From contig JAIXOY010000067.1 in assembly GCA_027486525.1 (NCBI GenBank), positions 1-35,923 of the forward strand: 35,923 nt of DNA, written 5' to 3'. Below the pieces are notes generated by a model. That model did no database searches and was not told the origin of the DNA. It worked only from the letters and a program-made list of their open reading frames with translations. The position numbers and the translations under genes are program-made. This DNA comes from Pseudomonadota bacterium (GTDB lineage Bacteria; Bdellovibrionota; Bacteriovoracia; Bacteriovoracales; Bacteriovoracaceae). How positions within the stretch are numbered: position 1 is the stretch's first letter; each line of letters starts with the position of its first letter. This document shows positions 2,210 through 22,925 of this stretch, in pieces.

Positions 2210-3346
2210 ATGAAAAAACTCCTACTTATGATGCTTGCCCTTACCCTCGCCGCCTGCCAAGAGAACTCTCCCCAGCGCTCCACGGCCAATCTCATGGAGC
2301 TGCCCGCACCTGAGCTAGGTGAGAGCTGGACGACGAAGAATGAAGACCAGGCCGAAAATATTTTGAACCACACGCGCGACATGGTGAACGAACGCGCGGC
2401 CACGAGTGGTGTGATGAACCGTGATGCGCACCCGAAGGCCCACGGCTGCGTGCGAGCGACCTTCACCATCGACAACAAAAATCTTCCCGCTGCCCAACGC
2501 GTGGGTGTCTTCGGTGACGACCAAAAAACCTTCGATGCGTGGGTGCGCTACTCGAACGGTGATCCCGATGGGGCGAAAAAACCGGATGCGGAAAAAGACG
2601 TGCGCGGCATGGCGGTGAAGCTGATGAACGTGGCGGAAGCCGCGAGCGGCAGCCAAGACTTCTTGATGATCACCGCGAAAGAATTTTTCTCGAAAGACGG
2701 CGATGACTATCTCGCTCTCTTCAAGGGCCTCACCGGCGGCAGCGTTCGTTTGGCGTTGTATGCTCTCACACACCCCCTGAGTGCGAAGCGCCTCTTGGGT
2801 GCGCGCGTGAAGATCGCCAATCCTGTGACGGCCAACTACTTCAGCTCAGTTCCCTACAAGCTCGGCAATCGCTCCATGCGCTTCAAGGCCGAGCCGTGCG
2901 TGGCGCCGACTGACAAGGTGCCGGCCAGTCCGAGTGCGCGCTACCTGCAAGAGGGCCTCGTTAAAACGCTCGCTGCGGGTTCGGCGTGCTACAACTTTTT
3001 CGTGCAACCGAACCTCGATCCAGAACACAATCCTGTGGAGGACCCGCGCGTGATCTGGGATGAGAAGAAATCACCCTACATCAAAGTGGCGACACTCACG
3101 ATCCCTCAGCAGGGCGGCATCACGTCTGTGGAGCAGACGAACTTCTGCGAGAACCTCAGCATGGATCCGTGGCATTCGCATGCGCAGACCCGTCCCTTGG
3201 GGCAGATTAACCGCATGCGGTCACTGATCTACAAAGAAATTTCGCGGATGCGCCATGACGGCAACCGTACGACGGTGCTGGAGCCCGTGAACCACACCCC
3301 GTGTGTGGGGCCGACGGCGGCGCTGTGTGAGACGCCGAAAAAGTAG
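2210..3346 (+). CDS. Catalase-family heme-protein homologue, predicted lipoprotein
   Basis: A 378-residue protein with a lipoprotein signal peptide: hydrophobic core then the lipobox Leu-Ala-Ala-Cys, giving a lipidated Cys16. The body resembles the catalase fold: the HPKAHGC segment near residue 75 corresponds to the HAKG region that carries the distal His of catalases, followed by a VRYSNG strand and DVRGMAVKL, both typical of catalase-related proteins. The C-terminal RPLGQINRMR segment sits where true catalases have the R-x-x-x-Y proximal-Tyr motif; that Tyr motif is not evident, and the protein is shorter than classical catalases (about 480 or more residues). It therefore fits the catalase-like family rather than a verified catalase; peroxidase-type activity on peroxides or lipid hydroperoxides is possible. 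It appears monocistronic. Confidence 0.75.
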   Translation: MKKLLLMMLALTLAACQENSPQRSTANLMELPAPELGESWTTKNEDQAENILNHTRDMVNERAATSGVMNRDAHPKAHGCVRATFTIDNKNLPAAQRVGVFGDDQKTFDAWVRYSNGDPDGAKKPDAEKDVRGMAVKLMNVAEAASGSQDFLMITAKEFFSKDGDDYLALFKGLTGGSVRLALYALTHPLSAKRLLGARVKIANPVTANYFSSVPYKLGNRSMRFKAEPCVAPTDKVPASPSARYLQEGLVKTLAAGSACYNFFVQPNLDPEHNPVEDPRVIWDEKKSPYIKVATLTIPQQGGITSVEQTNFCENLSMDPWHSHAQTRPLGQINRMRSLIYKEISRMRHDGNRTTVLEPVNHTPCVGPTAALCETPKK

Positions 3347-3401: not shown

Positions 3402-5867
3402 ATGAAGGGCCTTCTTCTAGCGCTATTGATTATCCATCCGTATTTAGCTCACGCCACAGCAGGCGGGCCGAGCAGCTGTTCCTTCAACCAAGGCCACTGT
3501 CCACTCGATAACCAAGGTCGGGACCACGGCTTCGTGCAAGACTACGGCTATGGTGGCTTGACCTCGACCGCAGCTGCGGCCCTCATACAAGCCTCGAGTC
3601 CCGTCGGGACCTTGGTGCAAGCACTCACGACTGGCCCGTTGAATTCTGAGTGCGTCTGGAGCCTTGGCGCTCACGCGCAAACCGCCGGGGGCGTGGCCTG
3701 GAATGGCAACTGCCGAGACGCCACTCGACAAGAGACCCAAACTCTCCAGTGCGCGGGGGTGGCAGGTCTCGGGTATTCCTACGACGGTAACTTCAACGAC
3801 ATCTTGGCCATCAATGATCAGCTCGATAACGTTCAAGAAGAGCTGGTCTACCAAACGGCGGTCAATGACATTAGAGCTTTTACTCAATGCCAAGACTCCC
3901 TCTTCAACACGTATAAAACCAATGCCGCTGTCCAGGAAGATCTCTTAAAAAATGCCTACGCCCAATTCGCCGCCGTAAAAAATGCGCTGCGTGGACTCAT
4001 GCGGGAGCAGCAGGCCTTGCGCAATCGCCTGGGCGACATCACAGCGGACAACATGATCTGCGGTGACGGTGGCTTTTGTATGATGTCACCGTCACTGTCC
4101 AACGATCCGGAGGTCAAGGCCATCGAAGCCAACATCGATGGACTCACCGGTCGTATCAACATGCTGGTGTCTCGGGTTCCCATGGGCAACCGCGACAGCA
4201 TGGGCAAAGTTTTGCGTGACCTCGTGCTCTCGCCGAATGCCGTAAGCGAAACACAGTTCGGAAATGCTTATCGTGCAGAGATGACCAACATGGCGGAGAA
4301 CGTCACCACCTCGCTAGCGACCATCCGAGCAATGACAGTGGGTCAAGGCAACGGGGACGTGAATTATTGTGTGGACCGCGAGATGAAAAAAAATCTTGTG
4401 CGCTCCGGACAACTGCAAACCACGATCGAACGCATGGGACTTAAAGACTCTCTGTCAGGCTTCACCTGCCGGGCGGAGAATCGCTACGGCGTGGCGGGAG
4501 AAGTCATCACAGAGCTCGCCCTCATTCCCACTTACTTCGTCGGATACGGAGCGGCTCGCCTGGCGCTCAAGGCGGGGGCGAGCACGATTCGGGCAGTGGC
4601 TTCTGCGGGGAGAACGCTCTCGACCGCGACACGGGGTGCGATGCTCGGACTTGAGAGCGCTGATTGGGCCTTCGCCACGGCCGCCGTCATTCGTGACTGC
4701 AACAGCGATGAGTTTTTTGCTCGGGTGCAGGCGCAACAAGGCTGCGATCCCATGAACGAGGTTGGCCAGATGTACGAAGAAGCGAGCCTCGCGCAGTGCC
4801 TCAGTTCGGCGCTCCTACCCGCAGCCTCCGCCATGGTAGGTACGGGAGTTCGGGTGATCAGTTCTCGCCGCCTCGCGGACGCAGTTCCTGTGTCCGCCCT
4901 CGATGAGGTCATCGAGGGCGGGGATTTTGTAGCGACCGCACAGAAACGAGAGTTTTTCATCAACAGAGCCGATTCCGAAACGATCACGAACAGTTTTCGC
5001 CAGCGAAACATCAGCGCGGGTCGTCCCCTCACGGATGCGCAGCTCACTTCGCTGACGCCGAAAGAAAAAGTCTCACTCTTTGAGAGCATGGGGAATCTCG
5101 CACTTTCTCCTGCTCAAGGCCGGCAATTCCTCGACATCATCAATGATGCCGGCGGGCAGCTCGACACGCGGGCGGTGAACCGTTTGACGGAGATGCTCAG
5201 GGGTCTCGATAAAACTGACCAACAGATCAACACCATCCTCCAGCGCGTGCGCACGAATCGTTTGTTCGAGACGCCACGACCAACCCCGCAGGTTGCGATG
5301 GCAGAAGCGAATCGCGAGGCACTTGCGGAAGCACGAACGGCGGGGACACCACCCACCGCCGATGAGTTGCTCGATCTCGCCGACGAAGTGGTTCACACGA
5401 ACCGACGCTTACTCAACCGTGGAACCGTCACACCATCGGACGTGGAGTTCCCTCAGCTCACGATCCAACAACAAAGAGCGACGCTCGATGAGCTCGAGCA
5501 GAGCTGGCGCACGTCCTATCCGTCCGAGCCGTTTCCCAGTGCTGCCTTCGCCCAGGCCCGTCGACGCATTGATGCGGGCGAACTTCGTCCCTCAGTTGCG
5601 ACGCTCGGTGATGGTGCGACTCCGGGGAGCTGGCGAACCGCCGGTTCAGATCTCGACCTCGCACTCGCAGGTCACCCGTTCGAAGCTGAGTGGACCGCCA
5701 CCTTAAATAGCCTCCTCGCGGGCCAACCGCTGCCACTTCCCGCGGCCACCCGTCGTGAACTGCTACTACAGATTTCGAACTCCCGGAATCCCGCGGCCAC
5801 AGCAGCCCAGCGCGAGCAGTGGCGAACCCTGTTGCGCGAAACGAACAGCTGCGAGGTCGCTCCATGA
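3402..5867 (+). CDS. Large exported protein of unknown family
   Basis: An 821-residue protein with an N-terminal signal peptide (hydrophobic stretch to about residue 18, cleavage after His-Ala-Thr-Ala or nearby). Residues 20-120 are rich in Gly, Ser and Cys. Residues about 130-300 look helical with many Gln, Asn and Met. A hydrophobic Ala/Gly-rich region (about 365-425 and again about 467-486) could be membrane-associated or a buried core. The last 250 residues are charged and helical with many Arg, Glu and Leu, and the protein ends with a Cys four residues from the terminus. Several Cys in both halves could form disulfides after export. No known domain or catalytic motif was recognised. Its TGA overlaps the ATG of the next gene, suggesting a stoichiometric or functional pair. 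Confidence 0.8.
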   Translation: MKGLLLALLIIHPYLAHATAGGPSSCSFNQGHCPLDNQGRDHGFVQDYGYGGLTSTAAAALIQASSPVGTLVQALTTGPLNSECVWSLGAHAQTAGGVAWNGNCRDATRQETQTLQCAGVAGLGYSYDGNFNDILAINDQLDNVQEELVYQTAVNDIRAFTQCQDSLFNTYKTNAAVQEDLLKNAYAQFAAVKNALRGLMREQQALRNRLGDITADNMICGDGGFCMMSPSLSNDPEVKAIEANIDGLTGRINMLVSRVPMGNRDSMGKVLRDLVLSPNAVSETQFGNAYRAEMTNMAENVTTSLATIRAMTVGQGNGDVNYCVDREMKKNLVRSGQLQTTIERMGLKDSLSGFTCRAENRYGVAGEVITELALIPTYFVGYGAARLALKAGASTIRAVASAGRTLSTATRGAMLGLESADWAFATAAVIRDCNSDEFFARVQAQQGCDPMNEVGQMYEEASLAQCLSSALLPAASAMVGTGVRVISSRRLADAVPVSALDEVIEGGDFVATAQKREFFINRADSETITNSFRQRNISAGRPLTDAQLTSLTPKEKVSLFESMGNLALSPAQGRQFLDIINDAGGQLDTRAVNRLTEMLRGLDKTDQQINTILQRVRTNRLFETPRPTPQVAMAEANREALAEARTAGTPPTADELLDLADEVVHTNRRLLNRGTVTPSDVEFPQLTIQQQRATLDELEQSWRTSYPSEPFPSAAFAQARRRIDAGELRPSVATLGDGATPGSWRTAGSDLDLALAGHPFEAEWTATLNSLLAGQPLPLPAATRRELLLQISNSRNPAATAAQREQWRTLLRETNSCEVAP

Positions 5868-6838
5868 AGCGCCACCTCCTCCTTCCCCTCCTATTCTTTT
5901 CTACGATCTTCATCAGCGCCGATGCGCAGGCCATCGCGTGCATCGACAACTTCCTCGCCTTGTTTCGTCGCACACCCGCATCTCCGGCCACGCCCGAACA
6001 GGTCGCGGCGGCACAGCTCGACATAACTCCTGCGGTCACCGCCGGAGACGACTGGCGCAACCTTCTGCAGAATCGTGAGTGGCGTGCGACCGCGCCGAGC
6101 CTCACCGTCAACCCGCGCTTTGCTGGCTTACCCCAGGCCGTTCAAGAACGCTTCCGGAACCTCCGCCAGCAAGGCAACAATGCCGGCTTCACGCGAGTCA
6201 CCGCCGCCGTGTTCGATCGCAAGAACCGGCTCACGAACATCAAAAGAAAACGCTTGTCAGAGTTGCTGTCACCGAAGATGCGCGCCCCCCATGCGCGGGC
6301 CATCGAAATGCTCTCCGACACCGGACGCTGGAATGATTACTTCGAAGACACCATGGGTGAAGTCTTCACGCGCATGATGAACTCGGGCGATCCTCGCTTA
6401 GTCGCGGCGGCCGGACGGGGTGAGTTCTCTGAAGCCGTGTTGATGGAGATGTTCCGCGAGCGGTTCGCCCGTCGAGGCGTGAACATTGCAGTCATTGAGC
6501 CGGGGGCGAAGCTGCTTTCATTTAGACAGTTTCGCGCCAAGCTCCGCGAGGGCGTCATCTGGGATCGCGCTTTCGAGGGTAACTACCTCACCTCCCACGG
6601 CCCCTTCCCGCACCTCTTCCAGCTCGACTACGTGCTCGACGATATGGTGCAGGCCAGCGGTGGGCAGGTCACGCGCTCGCAAGAATTTTTTGACTACTGG
6701 GGAGGCTCGAACGAGGGCCTGGCGGTGTGGAACGACATGTTCGATTTGTTCAGCGAAAAAGCGAGCGGCCATCACTCGCTGCGAGATACCTACACTGTGA
6801 CCAACGAATACCTCTCACGCTTTCCGCGTATCCCATAA
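5864..6838 (+). CDS. Exported protein of unknown family, coupled to the preceding gene
   Basis: The chosen start is the ATG at 5864, which overlaps the preceding stop as ATGA and opens directly into a signal peptide (Lys-Arg, Leu/Phe-rich core, Ala-X-Ala near residue 20). An ATG 15 codons earlier exists but would place a charged tail before the signal peptide. The 324-residue product is basic and helical in its first half. The second half contains conserved-looking segments: FRQFRAKL, HGPFPHLFQLDYV and YWGGSNEG, rich in aromatic and acidic residues with several His, that could form an active site, but I recognise no family. It is the last gene of the unit and is followed at once by a strong terminator. 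Confidence 0.8.
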   Translation: MKRHLLLPLLFFSTIFISADAQAIACIDNFLALFRRTPASPATPEQVAAAQLDITPAVTAGDDWRNLLQNREWRATAPSLTVNPRFAGLPQAVQERFRNLRQQGNNAGFTRVTAAVFDRKNRLTNIKRKRLSELLSPKMRAPHARAIEMLSDTGRWNDYFEDTMGEVFTRMMNSGDPRLVAAAGRGEFSEAVLMEMFRERFARRGVNIAVIEPGAKLLSFRQFRAKLREGVIWDRAFEGNYLTSHGPFPHLFQLDYVLDDMVQASGGQVTRSQEFFDYWGGSNEGLAVWNDMFDLFSEKASGHHSLRDTYTVTNEYLSRFPRIP

Positions 6839-6874: not shown

Positions 6875-7741
6875 TTACGGATTGTATCTACGCCAGTTCT
6901 TGAAGGCCTGCCGGCGAGCTTCCGACACTTCATCCAAATTCCAGCCTAGCTCCTGACGACCTTGCGTATCGAGCAACTCGAGGTCCCGCGGAGAGCGGTA
7001 GAACATGTTGGCGCGGATCAGGTAGCAGTACTGCGCTTGTTGGTTCTGGCGGTACTCGGTGTACGTGTTCACGCTCGGGCATGGAGCGTTGTTTTGCATG
7101 AAGTAGTCGGTCCAGTCACGCATCAAGGTCGGGCCATTGGTGAAGCTCACGTCCATGACGTGCTCGACGCTCATGTTGTTGGTCGCAACGAGGACCATCG
7201 GTGCCACGTGGAACCACCACTTGTAGCGGTACTCGCGGATGTAGCGTGACGTGAAGAAAATGAAGATCTTCATCGAATCAACGTTGTAGCGAGTCTTCAT
7301 GTCGTAGGCCCAGCCGTGGGCACGATTGAAGCACTGAGAGTTGCGCTTGGTGCGTCCGTCCATGGCATCGAAGATGGTCTGCGCGGAATTGATATCCAGA
7401 ACAGTTGGATTGAAGTTTTCTTTCTCGTAACCGAAGTCACCTGTCTCTTCGTCTTCAGTCACCACGTCCAAAAGCACCACACCGTTCAAGCGGCCATCAG
7501 CTTCGTTGAAATCAACGCGCACGGTGCGGTCTTGGCTTACGGCTTCTGTCAGCGCGCTCAAGAGAGCTGTGTCGCGGGCATCAACCCACAAAACACGGCC
7601 TTCTCCTTCGGCCATCACCGGGACTTCATTCTCACCGGCCTGAGGTTGACCCACCTGAACGAGACGGGTGGTCAGTTCGGCGGCGTGCAGGCCAGGAACC
7701 AGGATGGCGAGGGCAAAAGCGCCTATAAGTATATTTTTCAC
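6875..7741 (-). CDS. Secreted protein-glutamine glutaminase (protein deamidase) homologue
   Basis: Members of this family deamidate glutamine side chains in folded proteins, giving glutamate and ammonia. The 288-residue product has a signal peptide (cleavage near residue 20), an N-terminal segment of roughly 85-110 residues that fits a pro-region, and a C-terminal catalytic domain. The candidate triad is Cys137 (QCFNRAHGWAYDM), His178 (WWFHVAPMV) and Asp197 (HVMDVSFTNGP). The Cys-His spacing of 41 equals that of the Chryseobacterium enzyme (mature Cys42, His83) as I recall it, and the later FYRSP segment also matches that enzyme. Start is GTG with AAGGAG five bases upstream. It is divergent from the first transglutaminase gene, which acts on the same residue type. 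The family call is from motif memory, not a search. Confidence 0.8.
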   Translation of the reverse strand: MKNILIGAFALAILVPGLHAAELTTRLVQVGQPQAGENEVPVMAEGEGRVLWVDARDTALLSALTEAVSQDRTVRVDFNEADGRLNGVVLLDVVTEDEETGDFGYEKENFNPTVLDINSAQTIFDAMDGRTKRNSQCFNRAHGWAYDMKTRYNVDSMKIFIFFTSRYIREYRYKWWFHVAPMVLVATNNMSVEHVMDVSFTNGPTLMRDWTDYFMQNNAPCPSVNTYTEYRQNQQAQYCYLIRANMFYRSPRDLELLDTQGRQELGWNLDEVSEARRQAFKNWRRYNP

Positions 7742-7931
7742 AGGGTACTCCTTACAGAGGTTGGACGTTTTGCGGCCTTATAACGTGCCAAGCTAGCGCC
7801 TGGCGACATTAAAATGCTTATGGAGTATGAAAAAAGTATAGATTGTTGAAATCTCGACCCCAAATGACCTCGAATCTTGCTATAAACGCAATGCATTAAA
7901 AACTGATTTTTTCACCGTTAGAGGAGACTCT
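7742..7931. promoter_or_regulatory. Divergent promoter region, glutaminase / transglutaminase
   Basis: This 190-base AT-rich gap separates the two divergent genes. For the rightward gene an extended -10 (TG-C-TATAAA, 7878-7886) lies 45 bases before the ATG; its -35 is poor, as is common with extended -10 promoters. The rightward start has GAGGAG as ribosome-binding site. For the leftward gene TATAAG-like sequence (near 7780) is a weak candidate. A shared regulator could act here, but no clear operator was seen. Confidence 0.5.
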
Positions 7932-9536
7932 ATGAAACGCTCGTTAAAACTTTTAGCGCTGGCGACCTGCCTGTCGACAACCGCCGCCCTTGCGCAGGAT
8001 CCATTGCGCGAGATCTACCCTTACAAGCCTTACTCGATCGAGGAAGTCCGCAGCAAGGTCACAAAAATGACCGAAGATGGCCGTCCGTTGATGAACGTCA
8101 TCGAGATGGAACGCCGGGGCCTCATGCAGTCAAACGCAAAAGCCCAACCCTGGGGTGGTTACTTCTGGGCGTTGATCCAAGGGCAAATTGCTAACACCTA
8201 CCAAGACAAAAGCTACTTCGCTTTTTGGGAAATGCTCGGCTGGGAAGGCAACGTGAAGCGCTGGAAGAAGCGTCGTAGCGAAGTGTTGAACAACGTCATG
8301 AACCTCGAAGAGAAAGACCTCGCCGAACTCGCTCCTTCTGAAAAATACGACTTGTTGATGGGAGACACCAACTTCGATCTCACCTCTCGTGTGTGGCAGT
8401 TCGTCGAAGGCTGGGGTAACGGAAAGAAATGGGGCTTCTTGAGCTCGATCGATATTCCTGCCGGCTACCGTTTGCCGAAATCAACGAAGCTCATGGCACT
8501 CTGGGAAGGCATCTGTCACGGCTGGGCCTTGGCAGCGACTGGATACCAACGTCCAGAAAACACCGTCACCATCACGCTTCCTAACGGTAAGCGCATGCCG
8601 TTCTACCCGGATGACATCAAGGCCCTCGTGTCGTTGATGTTCGCGAACTCGATCGTGCAAGACAACGTGGTGGTTGAAGGCCTCCGTTGCCTCGATAAAA
8701 ACGTCGAGACCGATGAGTTCGGTCGTAACGTTGACCGCTTGCCGACCAAAGAAGGCGAAGAAGTCTTGCCTCGTTGCGCTGACGTTCACCCGGCCGTGTG
8801 GCACGCCTCCGTGGTTAACCTGACCGGTATTCAGGGTCGCGCGTTCGTTGTGGAAGTCGACTACCACGCCACGGTGAACAACCACCCGCTCTCTGGCTAC
8901 AAGTACAAGTGGTTCAACCCAAAATCTGGTAGGAACGGAGATCTCTCGAAGTCCGTCATCGACCTCGCCGGCTTCAAAGACGCCTACGCCTCTTCACGGA
9001 GCCCACTTGCCGTGAAGCTCGTCGGAGTCGAGATGGAAATGATCTACACCGACTGGTCGAACCCGAAAGATACCGAAACCAACACGACAGAAGACGATAA
9101 GTTTAAGTCGAAGAAGTTCATGTACGACCTCGAGCTCGATGCCCAGGGCAACATCGTCGGCGGCCAGTGGCGCGCGGAAAAAGTCATTGAGCTCCGTGAC
9201 CGTTACTCAAGAAACGAAGACGAAAGAACATCTCGCATCTTGCAACCCGACTTCTTCTGGGCCCTCCCGAAGAACTTCGCCATGTACTTCAAACCAGTCC
9301 CAGGCCTAGAAGCCTGGAACGGCATCGGCCAGACTCCGAAGAGCTGGACAGCTCCGGCGAAAGCAGCTCACGGCTTCATCTACAACGTGACTCGTGAGTT
9401 CGGCTTCAACGAGAAGTGCACCGTGATTCCGGAAGAAGGCAAGCTCACGAAAGAAGTTCCGTGTGAGTTCAAGTACCCACGCCCACAGCCTTTGATCAAC
9501 GTGGTGAACCAGCTCTTGCAGTTGTCTAAGCGCTAA
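7932..9536 (+). CDS. Secreted transglutaminase, TGase-elicitor type (paralogue 1)
   Basis: The family (Phytophthora GP42/M81-type elicitor transglutaminases and bacterial homologues) forms isopeptide bonds between protein glutamine and lysine. This 534-residue protein has a signal peptide ending at Ala-Leu-Ala (about residue 21). Family-type motifs run in order: ELAPSEKYDLLMGD (131-145), WEGICHGWA (191-199) with candidate nucleophile Cys195, FYPDDIKAL (224-232), GLRC (250-253), His291 in AVWHASVVN and Asp310 in FVVEVD, forming a plausible Cys-His-Asp triad. A later DLELDAQGNIVGG and PDFFWALP pair is shared with the next gene, as is the C-terminal QPL...LS tail. It is followed by a strong terminator. 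Inferred to act outside the cytoplasm on own or foreign proteins. Confidence 0.8.
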   Translation: MKRSLKLLALATCLSTTAALAQDPLREIYPYKPYSIEEVRSKVTKMTEDGRPLMNVIEMERRGLMQSNAKAQPWGGYFWALIQGQIANTYQDKSYFAFWEMLGWEGNVKRWKKRRSEVLNNVMNLEEKDLAELAPSEKYDLLMGDTNFDLTSRVWQFVEGWGNGKKWGFLSSIDIPAGYRLPKSTKLMALWEGICHGWALAATGYQRPENTVTITLPNGKRMPFYPDDIKALVSLMFANSIVQDNVVVEGLRCLDKNVETDEFGRNVDRLPTKEGEEVLPRCADVHPAVWHASVVNLTGIQGRAFVVEVDYHATVNNHPLSGYKYKWFNPKSGRNGDLSKSVIDLAGFKDAYASSRSPLAVKLVGVEMEMIYTDWSNPKDTETNTTEDDKFKSKKFMYDLELDAQGNIVGGQWRAEKVIELRDRYSRNEDERTSRILQPDFFWALPKNFAMYFKPVPGLEAWNGIGQTPKSWTAPAKAAHGFIYNVTREFGFNEKCTVIPEEGKLTKEVPCEFKYPRPQPLINVVNQLLQLSKR

Positions 9537-9543
9537 ACTCAGC

Positions 9544-9572
9544 GAGGGCCCCACTGCGGGCCCTCTTTTTTT
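9544..9572 (+). terminator. Rho-independent terminator between the transglutaminase genes
   Basis: GAGGGCCC and GGGCCCTC form a perfect eight-base stem with a six-base loop, followed by seven T residues. The next gene starts only 18 bases later, leaving no room for a promoter after it, so expression of the second transglutaminase must depend on read-through, a promoter inside the first gene, or RNA-level control. Confidence 0.8.
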
Positions 9573-9590
9573 GCCCCCCGGGAGCCTTCT

Positions 9591-10835
9591 GTGAAACACC
9601 TCGCCCTGCTATCCCTTGTGAGCTTTGCCGCGGTCGCAGGCCCACTCAAAGAGATTCCGAAAGACGAAGACTACACCCGTCTCCTTTCTCTCCCTGCCGC
9701 CACCACCTTGGATCAAGTCGCGGCTCGCGGTTTGAACGCTGGCGAAACAAAACTCGATCTTTGGTCAGGCTCGTATTGGCCGATGTACCAAGGATCTCTG
9801 GCGATCCGCTACCGCAATGCTGCCATTCGCACGCTTTCTGAAAACACGATTAAATATGAAAACTACGTCGCAGCCCACGTTGCTTCCGTGGCCGCTGACG
9901 AGCTCTCTCCGGCAGAAAAATATGATTTGCTCGTAGGTGATTCGCTCAAGACGTTCACCGCCACTCAATGGAAAAACGGCAAAGACAATGGCGGCCTCGG
10001 CGGCGTTCCTACCTGGCGCGGAATCTGCGACGGGTGGGCAGCCGCGGTGATGACCTGGCCTCGCCCGACAAAAGCTGTGACACTCACGGCGGCCAATGGC
10101 TCAGCGGTGACATTCTACCCGGAAGACATCAAGGCGCTCGGTTCTCAGTTGCACGCGAAGGGCATCAAAAAAGTCACGTTCCTGGGTCGCCGCTGTAACG
10201 GATCGACAGGCTACATCACCGGTGCTTGCGACGAAACCAATCCAGGCGCCTTGCACCTGGCGCTCGCGAATCGCGTCGGTGCTGAAGGCAAGAGCTTCGT
10301 GGTGGATGCCTCTCCAGGCAAGGAAGTGTGGAACTACCCTGTTTCAAAGTATGAGTTCATCTACCTGAATCCTCTGACTGGCATGGCGAGCGACAACTGG
10401 CAGAGCGCGCGTGTGCCTCTCGTCGGTAACGAGGACAAATTGGTAAACGGTAAAAAACGGAGCAAGGCCACTGTGTGGGTCGTGAGTGTGCTCGCCAAAG
10501 TTCAAACCATGGACATGCGTGACACGAACTTGCTTGCCTATGACGATGCCTCACAAGATAAAGTGCAAGACCTGAGCTGGAACTATGATTTGGAAATCGA
10601 TGCTCAAGGGAAAGTCATCGGCGGCGAGTGGTTGAAGAAGAATGGCCCCGACTTTATCTGGGCCCCGCGTGAAGACAGCCGTCCACTCTCGGTCGCTGAA
10701 ACTCGCACACGTTTAAGCTTTGATGCTAACCGTGGCGTGACTCCAGCGTTACAAGCGGCCGCTCTGCAAGCGTCTGCCGCTGCTCAGCCCCTGGCCGTGA
10801 TCGTCGATAAACTGTTCGAACTCTCTGCTCAATAA
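9591..10835 (+). CDS. Secreted transglutaminase, TGase-elicitor type (paralogue 2)
   Basis: A 414-residue paralogue of the preceding protein, with a GTG start and signal peptide (cleavage after about residue 16). It keeps the same ordered motifs: ELSPAEKYDLLVGD (104-117), WRGICDGWA (142-150) with Cys146, FYPEDIKAL (175-183), GRRC (199-202), His222 in LHLALANR and Asp239 in FVVDAS, then DLEIDAQGKVIGG and PDFIWAP. The Cys-His distance is 76 residues against 96 in paralogue 1, and inserts present there are missing here, so the copies are old and probably differ in substrate. It ends three bases before the convergent protease gene, with no terminator visible between them. Role as for the family: glutamine-lysine cross-linking, or deamidation when no amine is available. 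Confidence 0.78.
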   Translation: MKHLALLSLVSFAAVAGPLKEIPKDEDYTRLLSLPAATTLDQVAARGLNAGETKLDLWSGSYWPMYQGSLAIRYRNAAIRTLSENTIKYENYVAAHVASVAADELSPAEKYDLLVGDSLKTFTATQWKNGKDNGGLGGVPTWRGICDGWAAAVMTWPRPTKAVTLTAANGSAVTFYPEDIKALGSQLHAKGIKKVTFLGRRCNGSTGYITGACDETNPGALHLALANRVGAEGKSFVVDASPGKEVWNYPVSKYEFIYLNPLTGMASDNWQSARVPLVGNEDKLVNGKKRSKATVWVVSVLAKVQTMDMRDTNLLAYDDASQDKVQDLSWNYDLEIDAQGKVIGGEWLKKNGPDFIWAPREDSRPLSVAETRTRLSFDANRGVTPALQAAALQASAAAQPLAVIVDKLFELSAQ

Positions 10836-10838
10836 TTC

Positions 10839-12023
10839 CTAGCGCGAGCGTTCCTTGGCCAGTCTCACGGCGGCCAAGGCGTTCACTCGCCCCGCACCAT
10901 AGACATTCGCCTCGCCAATCTTATCGGCCGAATCAACGATGATGCTTTCCACTTGCTTCGGTGTGAACTTCGGGTTCACCGAATACACCAAGGCTGCGAC
11001 ACCTGTCGCGACGGGAGCCGCGTACGAAGTCCCGCTGCCGGAGCGGTATCGCTCAGTCGTGGGCTTGGAGTAGACGTTGGTTGAGTAAAGATTGTGGCCC
11101 GGAGCCACCACATCGATGAACTGGCCGTAGTTTGAGCCCCCTGATGAGAACCAGCCCTTGCGGTAGGTCCAGCGCTTGTCTGAGGCATTGGTCGCGCCGA
11201 CCGCAAAGACGTTCGTGTAATCCGGGTAGCTTTTCACGGAGCGATTCTTACCTTGGTTACCAGCGGCGTACACCAAGAGCGCGCCTTTATCAGCAGCGTA
11301 TTTGCCGGCCTCTTGCACGATCTGGCTCTCGATGCCTGTGAAGCTCACGTTGATGACCTTGGCGCCTCTATCGGCGGCCATTTTGATACAATCCGTGATG
11401 AGCTTCATGCTCGTGGAGCCACTGCTATTGGAGATGCGCAGAGGAAGAATTCGCACACCCGCTGCGACACCGGCGCCACCGAGGTCATTGCCCACGTGGG
11501 CGGCGATCAGGCCACCCACGAAAGTTCCGTGGGCCGTGGTGGTGGTGTTGTCGACACGGTTTTCGATCAAGCTCCACCCTGGCAGCACGCGGCCCTTTAA
11601 ATCTTCGTGGTCCACTTGCACGCCCGAGTCACAAACGGCGACGATGACGTCATTGCTACCGACCGTGTAGTCCCAAGCGAGATCCGAAGAAATGGTTCTG
11701 TGGTGCCATTGCGTTTCCGCGTCGGAGGCAGGAAAGCTGGCTTCCTGTTCGACGGTGTTGAATTCGACGAATTTGAAGGCGCCGGTCTTGAGCATGTCTT
11801 GGCGGAGCTGCTCGAGGGTCCCCCGACGGGTCTGCTTGTCGGACGGCTTAAGCACCTCGGCAATGCTCCCGGTGCCACTCTTCAGTTCGAACTGCTTTAC
11901 CAGCCCCGAGCTGGTGTTTTTCGTGTCCTTAAGTTGATAGAGGAGCTCTCCCGTATGGGCTTGGGACGCCGCATGAATTTGAGTTGAAATGAGTGCCAGG
12001 GCCGCCAAATTCCGTTTCAGCAT
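10839..12023 (-). CDS. Secreted subtilisin-like serine protease (S8)
   Basis: The start is set at the ATG at 12023, which has GGGAGA seven bases upstream and opens into a signal peptide; a GTG ten codons earlier gives a charged extension. From that ATG (394 residues) the protein has a signal peptide to about residue 20, a region of about 75 residues resembling an inhibitor-I9-type propeptide, then a peptidase S8 domain with Asp132 (VCDSGVQ), His165 (HGTFVGG), oxyanion Asn256 (AAGNQG) and Ser333 (SGTSYAAPVATG). All catalytic residues are present, so it should be active after self-processing. Facing the two transglutaminase genes and near the glutaminase, it is a reasonable candidate for cutting their pro-regions, or for general extracellular proteolysis. 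Confidence 0.92.
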   Translation of the reverse strand: MLKRNLAALALISTQIHAASQAHTGELLYQLKDTKNTSSGLVKQFELKSGTGSIAEVLKPSDKQTRRGTLEQLRQDMLKTGAFKFVEFNTVEQEASFPASDAETQWHHRTISSDLAWDYTVGSNDVIVAVCDSGVQVDHEDLKGRVLPGWSLIENRVDNTTTTAHGTFVGGLIAAHVGNDLGGAGVAAGVRILPLRISNSSGSTSMKLITDCIKMAADRGAKVINVSFTGIESQIVQEAGKYAADKGALLVYAAGNQGKNRSVKSYPDYTNVFAVGATNASDKRWTYRKGWFSSGGSNYGQFIDVVAPGHNLYSTNVYSKPTTERYRSGSGTSYAAPVATGVAALVYSVNPKFTPKQVESIIVDSADKIGEANVYGAGRVNALAAVRLAKERSR

Positions 12024-12038
12024 GGGTCCATCTCCCTT

Positions 12039-12053
12039 GTGCCTTCCTGGCAC
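12039..12053 (-). other. Small hairpin in the protease leader
   Basis: GTGCC and GGCAC form a five-base perfect stem around a five-base loop, just upstream of the ribosome-binding site of the subtilase gene. It could affect mRNA stability or translation; significance is unclear. Confidence 0.3.
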
Positions 12054-12105
12054 GTTGAGGATCGATCAAAGTCATTTCTTACATTTTGGCACGGAGAGCT
12101 AAAGC

Positions 12106-12138
12106 CACTAAGGGAGGGTAAATCTTACCACCCTAGTG
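12106..12138. promoter_or_regulatory. Imperfect inverted repeat, candidate operator
   Basis: CACTA-GGG-GGTAA is repeated in inverted form as TTACC-CCC-TAGTG around a three-base centre; 13 pairs are interrupted by one single-base bulge and one small internal mismatch. It lies in the 149-base gap between the divergent protease and pyroglutamyl-peptidase genes, and its right arm runs into the -35 hexamer of the latter, a usual place for a repressor site. It lacks a T-run, so it is not a standard terminator. Confidence 0.5.
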
Positions 12139-12164
12139 ACATCAAGTATTTTTTTGGCCATAAG
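12136..12164 (+). promoter_or_regulatory. sigma70-type promoter of the pyroglutamyl-peptidase gene
   Basis: -35 GTGACA (5 of 6) and -10 CATAAG (4 of 6) are separated by 17 bases (12142-12158). The -10 ends eight bases before the ATG at 12173, so the transcript would have a leader of only about two bases. Confidence 0.5.
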
Positions 12165-12172
12165 CAAGCCCT

Positions 12173-12973
12173 ATGAATCGTTGGACTTTATTTTTTGCTG
12201 CATTAAGTCTTTCTACTTTCGCTAATGCGAAAGACGTTGTGTTATTGTCGGGCTTTGACCCTTTTGGCAAACTTTCTGTCAACAACTCCTGGGTGATTGC
12301 GCAGCAAGTTAAATCACAACTTATGGCCTCCCGTGCGGACGTTGAAGTCGTCACCTGCTTACTGCCGACGAGCTACAATCGCGCCATCCCAGCTTTTGAG
12401 AAATGCCTTAATGAGTTGCCAGAAAAACCTACGCTCGTGATCTCTCTCGGTGCAGGGCCCTGCAACGTGAAATGGGAAACCCGTGCGCACAATCTCGACA
12501 GTGATAAGGGCCCAGACAACGATGGCGTCAGTCGTAAGCGGCAAGTGATCACACCCGGTGGCCCGGCCGATATTGGTCTGCGTTTGAACTACGGCGCCAT
12601 GTGGTGCTCGCTCACAGCAGAGGAAAAGAAACTCACGTGGGTTTCAACATCTCCAGAAAATTTTGTGTGTAACAACACCGCCTTTCGTTTCACCGAAAGA
12701 CACCCCGAGCAGATGTACGGCTTCATTCACGTTCCCAACGTGACCTGTGAAAAGAAAGTTCCCGACATCACCACTCGCTCCTCGGCGTTGATTGCTAAGA
12801 TGATTGGCATTCAACTTGATGCCCGCGCTTCGCTGACCTCCAGGATTGAATGGCCGATGGAGTTTAACGACGTTCGGTTACCGGAGACCCGTGACGAAGT
12901 TCGCACGTTGCTGCGTGGTCCGGTGGAGAGTTGCGAAAAAGAATTCCTCGAGCGCTGGCGTAAAGATTTTTAG
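12173..12973 (+). CDS. pcp: Exported pyroglutamyl-peptidase I-like peptidase (C15)
   Basis: Pyroglutamyl-peptidase I removes N-terminal pyroglutamate, the cyclised form of N-terminal glutamine, from peptides. The 266-residue protein carries the family marks: LLSGFDPFGK near residue 25-33, candidate Glu102 (KWETRAHNL), Cys166 (NFVCNNTAF) and His186 (YGFIHVPN), close to the Glu80-Cys143-His167 spacing of classical enzymes. It begins with a signal peptide ending in Ala-Asn-Ala (about residue 19), whereas well-known bacterial members are cytosolic and about 215 residues long. Extra Cys (62, 78, 97, 145, 192) could form disulfides in an oxidising compartment. It is divergent from the subtilase and overlaps the convergent oxidoreductase gene by four bases. 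Confidence 0.8.
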   Translation: MNRWTLFFAALSLSTFANAKDVVLLSGFDPFGKLSVNNSWVIAQQVKSQLMASRADVEVVTCLLPTSYNRAIPAFEKCLNELPEKPTLVISLGAGPCNVKWETRAHNLDSDKGPDNDGVSRKRQVITPGGPADIGLRLNYGAMWCSLTAEEKKLTWVSTSPENFVCNNTAFRFTERHPEQMYGFIHVPNVTCEKKVPDITTRSSALIAKMIGIQLDARASLTSRIEWPMEFNDVRLPETRDEVRTLLRGPVESCEKEFLERWRKDF

Positions 12974-13959
12974 AGCATCGCTGCGAGGCGATCCCCCAGT
13001 GGCCACGCGGTCACCCAGCCTGTTTTATACAACCCACCCACCGCGTACAAGCTTGACCCGATGGGTCCCGCCCAGGGCCGGCGGCCTTTCGTTTGAGCTC
13101 GCAATCCAGTGATGATTAGTGGGTTTTCAGAGGGGAAATTGATATTTACATGGGCGGCGAACTCATCGCGGATGGCGTCGAGTTCAGCGAGGTGAGGAAT
13201 GAACGTCGCATCCCCACTGACACTCGTTGCACCCAAGATCAAGCGCTGAAGATCGGCGTGATAGACGCACACCATGCCTTCCAGGCCAATGACAAAATTC
13301 TTGATCCCGTAATCGGTGTTGTCCCACTGAAAGAAAGAGCCTTGCGTGCTTTTCATGCTCTCCAAAGGAGAACCCACAAAGAGTTCGCGCGTCCACGCAC
13401 TCCACGGCCCGGTGGCCATGACGACCACATCGGCTTCGATCTTGATGCCACCCATGATGCCGACTTGCCACATCTCGCCCACACGTTCCAATGAAGTCAT
13501 GACGGCTTTGAGTTTTTCAACTTTCGGTTGCGGGACACTTCGCAAGAAAGTCGCCGGCTCAATGATCCAACCGGGCTCCGTGGTGATGTAGCGGGGAGAT
13601 TTTTTTGCACTAAAATGTGAAGCAGAAATTTTTTCGAGATGACCGTAACGGCGTTCGGCTTTGTCAGAGTAAACCCACGAGTGCACCGCTGTCTCTTTTA
13701 GGCCACTCCACTGCTCGCGCGCAAACAACGGATGAGTGAAGTTCCACATCTCCACAATTTCATCGCCCAGCGGACTCAAACCAGGTCGGGTGCCTCGAAG
13801 CGCAGCGATGGCGGTGGATCTTAGAGACGTTGCGGGTGCCAAATCGTCGTTTGCGATTTGGATAACAGAAGAGAATTTGTCAACATTGGCCTTCTGCGTG
13901 AGAGCGAAAAGAAACGCTGTCGCCGCCACTCCCTCGCCTATCACCACTAATCGCGCCAT
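12970..13959 (-). CDS. FAD-dependent oxidoreductase, DAO-like
   Basis: The start is set at the ATG at 13959, opening MARLVVIGEGVAATAF, a beta-strand followed by the G-x-G-x-x-A dinucleotide-binding turn. A TTG three codons earlier is a less likely start. Residues 170-180 hold the VVVMATGPWS motif typical of the second FAD contact in D-amino-acid-oxidase/glycine-oxidase type flavoproteins, and the C-terminal part (GRRPWAGPIG, LYAVGGLYKTGWV) resembles the final FAD-binding segment of that group. At about 329 residues it is near the lower end of the family. Substrate is unknown; amino acid or amine oxidation is likely. No signal peptide. Convergent with the pyroglutamyl-peptidase gene. Confidence 0.75.
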   Translation of the reverse strand: MARLVVIGEGVAATAFLFALTQKANVDKFSSVIQIANDDLAPATSLRSTAIAALRGTRPGLSPLGDEIVEMWNFTHPLFAREQWSGLKETAVHSWVYSDKAERRYGHLEKISASHFSAKKSPRYITTEPGWIIEPATFLRSVPQPKVEKLKAVMTSLERVGEMWQVGIMGGIKIEADVVVMATGPWSAWTRELFVGSPLESMKSTQGSFFQWDNTDYGIKNFVIGLEGMVCVYHADLQRLILGATSVSGDATFIPHLAELDAIRDEFAAHVNINFPSENPLIITGLRAQTKGRRPWAGPIGSSLYAVGGLYKTGWVTAWPLGDRLAAML

Positions 13960-14008
13960 GCTGCTCAATCCCCGTTATTTAATTCTGCTCTCATCCTCTC
14001 ACAACTGC

Positions 14009-14069: not shown

Positions 14070-16370
14070 ATGGCTTTGGATTCAGCAGCACTCATTTATG
14101 CCACTCAAAAACTGCAGTTGCCGCCGGCAAAAGTTTTGGCCACCGCCACACTTTTGATCACGGAGCAATGTACCGTTCCCTTCATTGCTCGTTACCGCAA
14201 AGAAGTCACCGGCGGTTTGGATGAAGTGCAGATCCGCGCCATTCACGAAGCCTACGAAGAACACATTGAAATCGAAAAACGCCGCGCCTTCATCCTCGAT
14301 GCTATTACGAAAATGGAGATGATGACTCCGGCCCTAGAAAAACAAATCAAAACCGCTGCCACGCTGAACCAACTTGAAGACCTTTACGCGCCCTACAAGT
14401 CGAAGAAAAAAACCAAGGCGATGATTGCCAAGGAATTTGGACTTGAGCCGGTAGCGAACTTAATTTTGACCGGCAAAGGCACGCTTGAATCACACAAAGC
14501 CGCGCTAGAAGAAATCGTCGCGAAGTCTGGCGGTAAGCTGAAAGACGTCGCCGAAGCCCTGACCGGCGCTTCTGACATCATCATCGAGACCTTCTCCCAC
14601 GACCTCACACTCAAGGAAAAATTACGTCATGAATTCTGGCGCCAAGGCCAGATCAAGACCGTGAAGCGCAAAGATGCGGAGACGATTGAAGAGCATGCCA
14701 AGTTCCGGGACTTCTTTGAATTCTCTGAGCCCCTCTCGAAAATCAAAGAGCCGAAAGCCTCACACCGCTACCTGGCCCTGCGCCGCGGGATGATGCTGAA
14801 AGTTCTCAAGGTCGATGTGGAAATCGATCCGTTGCTGGCCTATGGCATGATCGAAGAGCAGTTCTTCTCAAGCCGCGCGTCTTTGGGTTGCTATGATCAC
14901 CTCAAGAAATGCGCCCAAAAAGCCTACGACCAAGTCATCCAGCCCAGCCTTGATCTCGAGGTAAAGAACGACCTTAAGAAGGCCGCCGATACCGCCGCCA
15001 TCAACATCTTCGGGGTCAACCTCAAAGACCTTCTCTTGCAGCCTTACTTGGGCTCTAGAGCGGTTCTTGGCATCGATCCAGGGGTGCGCACAGGATGCAA
15101 AGTCGTCATCATCGACGCCACCGGTAAGTTCCTGGGTGACCACGTCGTTTATCCCTTCGCTCCCAAGAATGACGTCAAAGGCTCAGCGCAGATTCTCACC
15201 AAGATGATCGATGCCTTCAAAATCGAATACGTCTGTGTGGGCAGCGGAACCTATGGCCGTGAAACCCTGGCCTTCTTGGAAGAACATGTTCCCCAGGTGA
15301 AGAGCGGCGCCACTAAGGCCACTTTGATTTCTGAATCGGGCGCTTCTATTTATTCTGCATCCGACATCGCGCGCGAAGAGTTCCCCGATAAGGACGTCAC
15401 TGTTCGCGGCGCGATCTCCATCGCTCGCCGCTTCCAAGACCCTCTCGCCGAACTCGTGAAAATCGACGCGAAATCTATCGGTGTGGGCCAGTACCAACAC
15501 GATGTGAATCAAATCCAACTCAAGAACTCTCTCGAAGGTGTGGTCGAGTCCTGCGTGAACTTCGTCGGCGTTGACTTGAACACGGCATCAGCACCTTTGC
15601 TGGCGTTTGTCTCGGGCATCGGGCCGACGGTCGCTAAAAATATCGTGACCTACCGCCAGGAGAAAGGCGCGTTCCAATCACGCGCTGACCTCTTGAAAGT
15701 TCCGCGCTTCTCACAAAAAGTGTTTGAACAATGCGCGGGCTTCTTGCGTTTGTACACCTCGACGAACCCATTGGATGCCACCTTCATTCACCCGGAACGT
15801 TACGCTATTCTGGAAACGTGGGCCGCCAAGAAAGGCAAAGCCATTGCTGACCTTGTGAATGACCGTGAATTGCAAAATGCCCTCGAGAAAGACCCGGAAC
15901 TCAAAAAAGAAATTGGTGAGATGACTCTTACTGATATCGCCAAGAGCTTGCGCGCTCCGACCCAAGATCCCCGGACCGTCTTCAAGAGCGTGGAGTTTGC
16001 GAAAGGCATCTCTGATCTGAAAGACCTCAAGATGGGGGAATGGTACCAAGGCGTCGTCACCAACATCACCATGTTCGGCGCCTTCGTTGACATCGGCATC
16101 AAAGAGAACGGTCTCCTGCACATCTCCCAAATTTCAGACACGTTTGTTGAGAACGCGACGGACAAATTGAAAGTCGGCATGGAACTCAAAGTGAAAGTCA
16201 TCGGCGTGGATATGGAACGCAAGCGCGTCTCACTTTCATGCAAGGCCGATGCGCGCCCGGAAGGCGTGCCGACATCAAGCGGGAGCTCAGGTCCGATGCC
16301 GAAGATGCCGGCCCAGCCCGCGTTTAAGAATAATGCCTTCGCCGGCCTTTCAGGATTGAAGGTTAAGTAA
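14070..16370 (+). CDS. tex: Tex, S1-domain RNA-binding transcription accessory protein
   Basis: Tex proteins bind RNA and affect transcription and RNA turnover in the cytoplasm. The 766-residue product has the normal length and domain order: helical Tex N-terminal domain (about 1-200, with PFIARYRKEVTGGLDE), YqgF/RNase H-like domain beginning near residue 330 (LGIDPGVRTG), helix-hairpin-helix region (about 507-560, SGIGPTVAKNIV), and a C-terminal S1 domain (about 657-725, YQGVVTNITMFGAFVDIG). A short Ser/Gly/Pro-rich tail ends the protein. It has its own promoter and AGGAGA ribosome-binding site, and it ends directly against the convergent gene at 16371. Confidence 0.97.
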   Translation: MALDSAALIYATQKLQLPPAKVLATATLLITEQCTVPFIARYRKEVTGGLDEVQIRAIHEAYEEHIEIEKRRAFILDAITKMEMMTPALEKQIKTAATLNQLEDLYAPYKSKKKTKAMIAKEFGLEPVANLILTGKGTLESHKAALEEIVAKSGGKLKDVAEALTGASDIIIETFSHDLTLKEKLRHEFWRQGQIKTVKRKDAETIEEHAKFRDFFEFSEPLSKIKEPKASHRYLALRRGMMLKVLKVDVEIDPLLAYGMIEEQFFSSRASLGCYDHLKKCAQKAYDQVIQPSLDLEVKNDLKKAADTAAINIFGVNLKDLLLQPYLGSRAVLGIDPGVRTGCKVVIIDATGKFLGDHVVYPFAPKNDVKGSAQILTKMIDAFKIEYVCVGSGTYGRETLAFLEEHVPQVKSGATKATLISESGASIYSASDIAREEFPDKDVTVRGAISIARRFQDPLAELVKIDAKSIGVGQYQHDVNQIQLKNSLEGVVESCVNFVGVDLNTASAPLLAFVSGIGPTVAKNIVTYRQEKGAFQSRADLLKVPRFSQKVFEQCAGFLRLYTSTNPLDATFIHPERYAILETWAAKKGKAIADLVNDRELQNALEKDPELKKEIGEMTLTDIAKSLRAPTQDPRTVFKSVEFAKGISDLKDLKMGEWYQGVVTNITMFGAFVDIGIKENGLLHISQISDTFVENATDKLKVGMELKVKVIGVDMERKRVSLSCKADARPEGVPTSSGSSGPMPKMPAQPAFKNNAFAGLSGLKVK

Positions 16371-21890: not shown

Positions 21891-22925
21891 GTGTGCTTGG
21901 CACGTTCTGAGGCCCTCAGCATTGTCGCTGTCTCCGCTCTTCCCTCCACTGGTGTAGACGAAAAACTCGCGCGCCAGTTTAAAGAGGCCCGCGAGCGCGG
22001 CATTCACATCGAGGATTTCTTCAACGACTTCCTCGAACGTTTTCTCTCACTCGATACCCGCCGGGCCTACCAGGGCGACCTCGATGCCTTTTTTGCTTTT
22101 CTCAAAAGCGGCGGTGAGCAACTGCGCCACCCGTCGGATCTCAAAGCCTTTCACTTTCAGCTCTACCGCGACAAACTCATCGCTGAAGGCAAGGCCTCGG
22201 CCACCGTCAATCGTCGACTGGTGGCGATCCGCTCTTTCATGAAGTGGGCCGTGGCGGCGAAACTCGTGGACCACAATCCACTGGATGTGGTGAAGCTCCC
22301 CAAGGTGCAGACCGAATCACCCACGCAAGCCTTTGACGATGAAGAAGTCACGCGCATGCTAGCGGCCCCGGACCTCAACACTGTCAGTGGAAATCTCCAT
22401 CGCATCTCCATGGTGCTCTTGTTTCACTTAGGCCTTCGTCGTGCAGAACTCACGGGTTTGCGCCTGATGGATTTTCAACAGCAGCGTGGGCATTTTGTTG
22501 TGCGCGTCCACGGTAAGGGCGACAAGGTTCGCCTGGTCCCAGTGACTGAGACAGTGGCCCAGGAGCTCCATGCCTACTACGCCCGCCTCATGAAGATGGG
22601 AGTTAAGCTCGAGCCCGATGAGTGGCTTTTGCAGACTGACCCGGTGAGGCGCCGAGGGCAACGGGTCGACGGATCCACCGTGTATCGAATCATTGAAAAG
22701 TACGCCCGGGCGCTGGAGATCAATAAGAAGGTTTCGCCGCACTCCTGTCGTGCCACCGTGATCTCACACTTACTAGATACTCAATCAGCACCGATTCGTG
22801 ATGTGGCGATCTTTGCAGGCCACGCCAATGTGACCACCACTGAGCGCTACGATAAGCGCCGGCAGAACCTCGAGAAGAGCGCGGCCTATGCGGTTGATTT
22901 TGAGCTAGAGAAAAAGAAAGCCTAA
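21891..22925 (+). CDS. Tyrosine recombinase (XerC/XerD-like integrase)
   Basis: The 344-residue frame has the N-terminal SAM-like core-binding domain (about 43-130) and the C-terminal catalytic domain. All catalytic residues are present: Arg183 (LGLRRAEL), Lys209 (GKGDKVR), His284 and Arg287 (HSCRATV), His311 (AGHANVTTTE) and nucleophile Tyr320 (ERYDKR). Length and motif spacing suit a Xer-type or small integrase. The start is uncertain: GTG at 21891 is given, but the promoter just upstream would put the mRNA start at the TTG at 21897; no ATG lies before the domain. No attachment repeats or phage genes were seen nearby, so it could be a chromosomal Xer enzyme or a stranded integrase. It overlaps the convergent gene by four bases. 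Confidence 0.9.
   Translation: MCLARSEALSIVAVSALPSTGVDEKLARQFKEARERGIHIEDFFNDFLERFLSLDTRRAYQGDLDAFFAFLKSGGEQLRHPSDLKAFHFQLYRDKLIAEGKASATVNRRLVAIRSFMKWAVAAKLVDHNPLDVVKLPKVQTESPTQAFDDEEVTRMLAAPDLNTVSGNLHRISMVLLFHLGLRRAELTGLRLMDFQQQRGHFVVRVHGKGDKVRLVPVTETVAQELHAYYARLMKMGVKLEPDEWLLQTDPVRRRGQRVDGSTVYRIIEKYARALEINKKVSPHSCRATVISHLLDTQSAPIRDVAIFAGHANVTTTERYDKRRQNLEKSAAYAVDFELEKKKA

Follow-up and report, generated by a model that had tools for sequence, protein, structure and literature searches.

Five exported enzymes at one locus

The window analyzed here is a stretch of 35,923 nucleotides that makes up the whole of contig C261 of a draft Bacteriovoracaceae genome (3.49 Mb, 91% complete), whose closest named relatives are the Bacteriovoracaceae metagenome-assembled genomes (MAGs) JAKFUR010000025.1 and JAIEMA010000016.1. 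The genome belongs to an uncultured group related to the predatory Bacteriovorax. Between positions 6875 and 12973 it carries genes for a protein-glutaminase homologue (DEAM), two transglutaminase (TGase) homologues (TG1 and TG2), a subtilase, and a pyroglutamyl-peptidase-like protein of family C15. An original prediction, made from the sequence alone, had described these as a cluster of exported enzymes that all act on protein glutamine or its products, and an open reading frame listing places the five genes exactly where that prediction did. Pfam assigns them to Gln_deamidase_2, TGase_elicitor (twice), Peptidase_S8, and Peptidase_C15, confirming the proposed families, and the cysteine enzymes do not fall into unrelated ones. 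Signal-peptide-like N-termini, also anticipated, are present in 5/5 proteins by a simple home-made rule whose cleavage sites are predictions. The description of all five as acting on protein glutamine was too broad: it does not cover the subtilase, and action of the C15 protein on pyroglutamate comes from family knowledge only. Purifying selection acts on each of the five genes (pairwise dN/dS of 0.04-0.12 versus the related genome G004). An NCBIfam search gave no name for any of the glutamine enzymes at the locus, and predicted structures were poor (mean pLDDT of 44 for TG2 and 49 for the deamidase), with shallow alignments.

DEAM (6875..7741, minus strand) matches PF18626, Gln_deamidase_2, at 1.8e-13 (51 bits, curated cut-off 25). 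It has a pre-pro layout, with a signal at residues 1-20, a pro-domain at about 21-110, and then a catalytic domain whose triad, C137/H178/D197, is invariant in an alignment with 18 homologues. The DEAM family profile matches the structures 8z3i (1.7e-21) and 3a56/3a54 (2e-15), and its alignment to 3a56 spans the pro-region, from profile position 40. Chryseobacterium protein-glutaminase (PDB 3a54/3a56/2zk9, PF18626) therefore shares with DEAM the profile, the Cys-His-Asp triad, and the succession of signal, pro-domain, and catalytic domain. DEAM differs from it in the C-terminal region, in adjoining TGases and a protease, and in occurring as one of 10 copies per genome. A phmmer search with the single DEAM sequence returned no match, and the kinship is thus remote. 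Protein-glutaminase is described as a 114-aa pro-sequence followed by a 185-aa mature enzyme (PMC6132073). Because DEAM keeps this pro-domain, it is probably, by analogy, exported as a zymogen. It would deamidate protein-bound glutamine.

At the other end of the cluster lies the exported C15 protein (12173..12973, plus strand; Pfam PF01470 Peptidase_C15, 1.5e-18; PDB 3lac, 2e-14). The C15 family acts on N-terminal pyroglutamate. The protein shares the sequence family and the E/C/H triad of pyroglutamyl peptidase I (PDB 3lac, 1aug), with E102/C166/H186 invariant in an alignment with 17 homologues, but has in addition a signal peptide, a C-terminal extension, and six conserved cysteines. These extra cysteines mark the exported clade, are absent from the cytosolic-length paralogue, and would fit an oxidizing location. 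Against the NCBIfam equivalog TIGR00504 it reaches 74.9 bits, below the cut-off of 201.75, so we class it as a C15-family relative and not as the equivalog; the second C15 protein of the genome, on contig C234, is of ordinary cytosolic length. A plant-type glutaminyl cyclase was searched for as a partner and none was found. Four M28 proteins were considered in that role, of which the one read (L230) resembles an ordinary aminopeptidase.

Clustering and gene order

The window genome holds 10 TGase_elicitor, 10 Gln_deamidase_2, 14 S8, and 2 C15 genes, and most of its TGase and deamidase copies sit outside clusters. With copies this abundant, clustering needs a statistical test. Across 59 related genomes, a deamidase lies within 3 kb of a TGase in 7 cases versus 0.85 expected under a uniform model; this expectation rests on the TGase matches listed, which lack some of the weakest, and is therefore slightly underestimated. 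Four of the seven pairs are orthologues of the window locus, which leaves about four independent cases. The other three differ in arrangement, being convergent (L100), on the same strand 69 bp apart (L101), and divergent (L102). In the window genome, an S8 gene lies within 4.5 kb of 3/10 deamidases versus 0.36 expected. Chance clustering of the module is rejected by the excess of pairs and by the gene order that recurs in relatives.

The genomes compared are MAGs, and contig breaks interrupt several loci. All five same-genus genomes keep the order deamidase, TG1, TG2, protease, exported C15 to the extent that their contigs permit. G001 (L096) has the five genes in identical order and orientations, G002 (L146/L174) and G004 (L098/L099) show the order across contig breaks, and G003 (L037) has DEAM, two tandem TG1 genes, TG2, and C15. 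In a second genus (g24), a TGase adjoins the exported C15 in 20/22 loci, arranged as TG1-(TG2)-C15; it does not at L151, or at L152, which lies close to the end of its contig. The predicted cluster is thus genuine, and its genes are not scattered in all relatives. Long C15 genes without a TGase nearby occur at an additional, more distant locus in one g24 genome (L172) and at four loci in other genera (L162, L166, L170, L181).

DEAM stands divergent beside TG1 in the g1 loci uncut by contig ends and, in g24, at L158 and L161. The 190-bp intergenic region between them (7742..7931), whose layout is kept in L096, L098, L158, and L161, is a possible shared promoter region, judging by its arrangement. 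DEAM is accordingly a core part only in the window's genus. Since it is found at only 2 of the g24 loci, the TG1-C15 block, which is shared more widely, cannot have an antagonism between deamidation and cross-linking as its core function.

An exchangeable protease slot

The exported subtilase (10839..12053, minus strand) lies tail-to-tail with TG2 and likely starts at an internal Met, codon 11, at window position 12023. Its match to PF00082 Peptidase_S8 (6e-49) covers profile positions 2-288 of 288, with the motifs DSG, HGT, and GTSYAAP visible in the translation, and it has orthologues in G001, G002, and G004. The slot that it occupies, between the TGases and C15, always has its occupant on the opposite strand. 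A subtilase fills it in four loci (window, L036, L096, L146), and a protein with an HExxHxxGFxH motif fills it in 22 loci, including L151 and L152, found in G003 and the second genus; in G003 (L037) it is a 239-aa exported-type protein. Protease-like genes of two unrelated types thus take the same position and orientation across 26 loci, and the slot is empty of both in two TGase-bearing loci (L149, L157). In the alternative protein, HEWxHKxGFxH is invariant, a zinc-protease-like signature. It matches no Pfam family above cut-off and has no significant relative in the PDB, and a genome can carry as many as 10 members of its family. The strongest hint that the module's function would include a protease is the filling of a single slot by two unrelated protease-like proteins.

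Two transglutaminase homologues

TG1 (7932..9536, plus strand, 534 aa) and TG2 (9591..10835, plus strand, 414 aa) are exported proteins that exceed the PF16683 TGase_elicitor cut-off of 25 bits (TG1, 80 bits, 1.5e-22; TG2, 124 bits, 1.1e-35) and match PDB 3tw5, the GP42 transglutaminase of Phytophthora sojae (1.3e-11 and 6e-22, respectively). Like GP42, they have the core domain, the active-site Cys (in GIC), and the helix Asp, and TG2 has a Pep-13-like VWNYPVSKYEFIY; unlike GP42, they are bacterial, in tandem, and accompanied by an exported C15. The Pep-13 segment reads VWNYPV in TG2, with Trp and Pro, and VNNHPL in TG1, without the Trp. TG1 would cross-link Gln to Lys or deamidate.

TG1, whose orthologues are present in two genera and whose predicted mature N-terminus is Gln, carries GICHGW, with Cys-His as in GP42. 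TG2 and its orthologues have Cys-Asp instead, within GICDGW in TG2. The 3tw5 chain reads GISHAW at this position, and we take its Ser to be an engineered replacement of the active Cys. The prediction that catalytic residues are intact holds for the invariant DEAM and C15 triads, the S8 motifs, and the Cys of both TGases; it may not extend to the Cys-Asp of TG2, as GP42 is described as using the His directly after the Cys (PMC10318531). Among 83 TGase_elicitor relatives, the residue after the Cys is H in 60, D in 16, N in 6, and Y in 1, versus conservation of the Cys in 82/83, the helix Asp in 83/83, and a His in the FH segment in 80/83. Because the post-Cys His varies and the FH His is kept, either TG2-like proteins are inactive or the FH His may be catalytic in a large part of the family. 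Wherever the contig reaches far enough, an intact Cys-Asp TG2 at this locus stands beside a Cys-His TG1; nine loci have TG1 but no TG2.

Flanking genes and neighboring observations

Downstream of C15 lie a DAO-type oxidoreductase (12970-13968, minus strand; Pfam DAO for 12973-13968) and a Tex/S1 RNA-binding protein (14070-16370, plus strand; recognized from sequence alone). Both are conserved neighbors, arranged identically next to C15 in the two genera, and are probably outside the module's function. Further downstream, a gene of the tyrosine recombinase/phage integrase family (21891-22925) may be XerC/D-type or part of a mobile element.

The opposite flank is conserved too, as an operon for an ATP-grasp protein, a protein of about 750 aa, and an outer-membrane-barrel-like protein. 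The circularly permuted ATP-grasp protein (1248 aa; L096:11663-15409, L028:6655-10401, and orthologues) has a conserved SYNQTQQ(QQ) sequence at its C-terminus. A link between this poly-Gln tail and the TGases was set aside, as 7/8 sampled genes of other genera retain SYNQTQQ and the protein is not known to be exported. Beyond the ATP-grasp gene stands a second, divergent Gln_deamidase_2 gene (L028 on contig C130, L096:15638-16432, L097:18947-19501), so that two deamidases flank the operon in the window's genus; C130 is probably the contig that adjoins the window at its start. Between the operon and DEAM, window positions 3402-6838 encode two proteins of 821 and 339 aa that look exported and have no homologue in any syntenic locus, the smaller with a weak DUF5636 match. 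The protein at 2210-3346, whose match to Catalase is marginal (7e-6, slightly over the cut-off), is conserved only in G003 and G004. Where DEAM would stand beside TG1, second-genus loci often have a YkuD_2 L,D-transpeptidase (L112:4038-5702, L161:2271-4247, L163:11132-13093, and, by sequence likeness only, L151:10001-11977).

In a survey of the window and G000 loci L019-L035, about 10/31 protein families of predicted signal-peptidase substrates (32%) had Gln as the first residue after cleavage (+1), versus a Gln background of 3.6% and 0/16 in a matched control from E. coli K-12. This excess, as read from predicted cleavage sites, resembles the Q-rule, which has been described as confined to Bacteroidetes (PMC10653852).

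Discussion

Taken together, the families, export signals, catalytic residues, gene order, purifying selection, and exchangeable protease slot suggest, at even chances in our judgment, that the module is a vertically inherited, secreted enzyme set that modifies and digests extracellular protein. New relative to the original prediction are the exchangeable slot, the DEAM pro-domain, the six extra cysteines of C15, and the Cys-Asp TG2 accompanying TG1. DEAM would be exported as an inactive pro-enzyme, and the neighboring protease, the subtilase here and the metalloprotease-like protein in relatives, would cut its pro-domain. TG1 would be the main transglutaminase and TG2 its partner, or a variant of different specificity. 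The glutamine enzymes would alter target side chains, from Gln to Glu or into Gln-Lys cross-links, and the exported C15 would strip pyroglutamate from N-termini, whether made by the protease or capped beforehand, and so expose them to aminopeptidases.

Streptomyces mobaraense secretes a pro-transglutaminase together with activating proteases. The logic proposed here, of a secreted zymogen acting on glutamine with a secreted activating protease, is alike; the TGase family is another, and the resemblance is in logic only. A tentative and rather doubtful extension is that TG2 depends on TG1, as a two-subunit or sequential glutamine enzyme, within a secreted module for proteolytic activation in which proteases of unrelated families can replace one another as the activator.

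As for targets, foreign or dead-cell proteins appear most likely by analogy with a feeding or attack secretome, since these are large families whose copy number varies and which relatives can do without. Among the matches listed, TGase_elicitor copies range from 0 to 18 per related genome, with none in several Bacteriovoracaceae genomes that are close to complete, and such numbers look like a variable secretome and not a structural system. In Bacteroidota, most exported proteins are capped with pyroglutamate, which stabilizes them (PMC10653852), the cap presumably guarding against aminopeptidases. The exported C15 could therefore, as a speculation, help against such Bacteroidota prey.

Several points weigh against a common secreted module. 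The flanking genes (DAO, Tex, and the ATP-grasp operon) are equally syntenic, and vertical inheritance of a stable region therefore accounts for part of the conservation. Most loci of the second genus lack DEAM. An operon-like arrangement is seen for TG1 and TG2 only, with DEAM and the protease on the other strand, and the zymogen cleavage step is proposed by analogy.

The alternative that survives best, though we consider it somewhat unlikely, is that these are neighbors without a common task, in a stable chromosome stretch gathering secreted hydrolases that each act alone. The conserved flanks agree with it, as do the mostly unclustered copies of the 10 TGases and 10 deamidases and the gain or loss of DEAM and TG2 among loci, but deamidase-TGase pairs recur elsewhere (L100, L101, L102) in clear excess, and the protease slot is refilled by another protease type, not lost. 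More doubtful is that the TGase_elicitor proteins here are cysteine peptidases or amidases, or that TG2 is a pseudoenzyme. The papain-like fold of the family would allow this, TG1 lacks the Pep-13 Trp, and the His next to the Cys, to which catalysis in GP42 is attributed (PMC10318531), is missing from TG2; the near-invariant Cys, helix Asp, and FH His, however, make a canonical Cys-His-Asp site possible in both, and TG2 is under strong purifying selection (dN/dS of 0.04 versus G004). Least probable of the three is a self-directed coat system, in which the cell would use its TGases to cross-link outer proteins of its own (of a coat, cyst, or matrix), with the deamidase limiting the cross-linking and C15 and the protease trimming: export, adjoining YkuD_2 L,D-transpeptidases and an outer-membrane-barrel-like protein, and the frequent initial Gln of exported proteins in the window genome speak for it, but large variable expansions and absence from near-complete relatives, among the matches listed, would be unusual for a structural system, and no coat or cyst protein was identified near the locus.

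Our literature search found no paper linking protein-glutaminases and GP42-type transglutaminases in one locus, and none reporting transglutaminases in Bdellovibrio-type predators. Protein-glutaminase and transglutaminase are industrial enzymes, and a secreted enzyme set of this kind, if true, would be useful for enzyme discovery. The locus allows a direct test of the identity of the catalytic His in the GP42 family. If the favored reading is true, it would also represent a natural set of opposing glutamine-modifying enzymes with their own protease, and a model for the control of secreted cross-linking.

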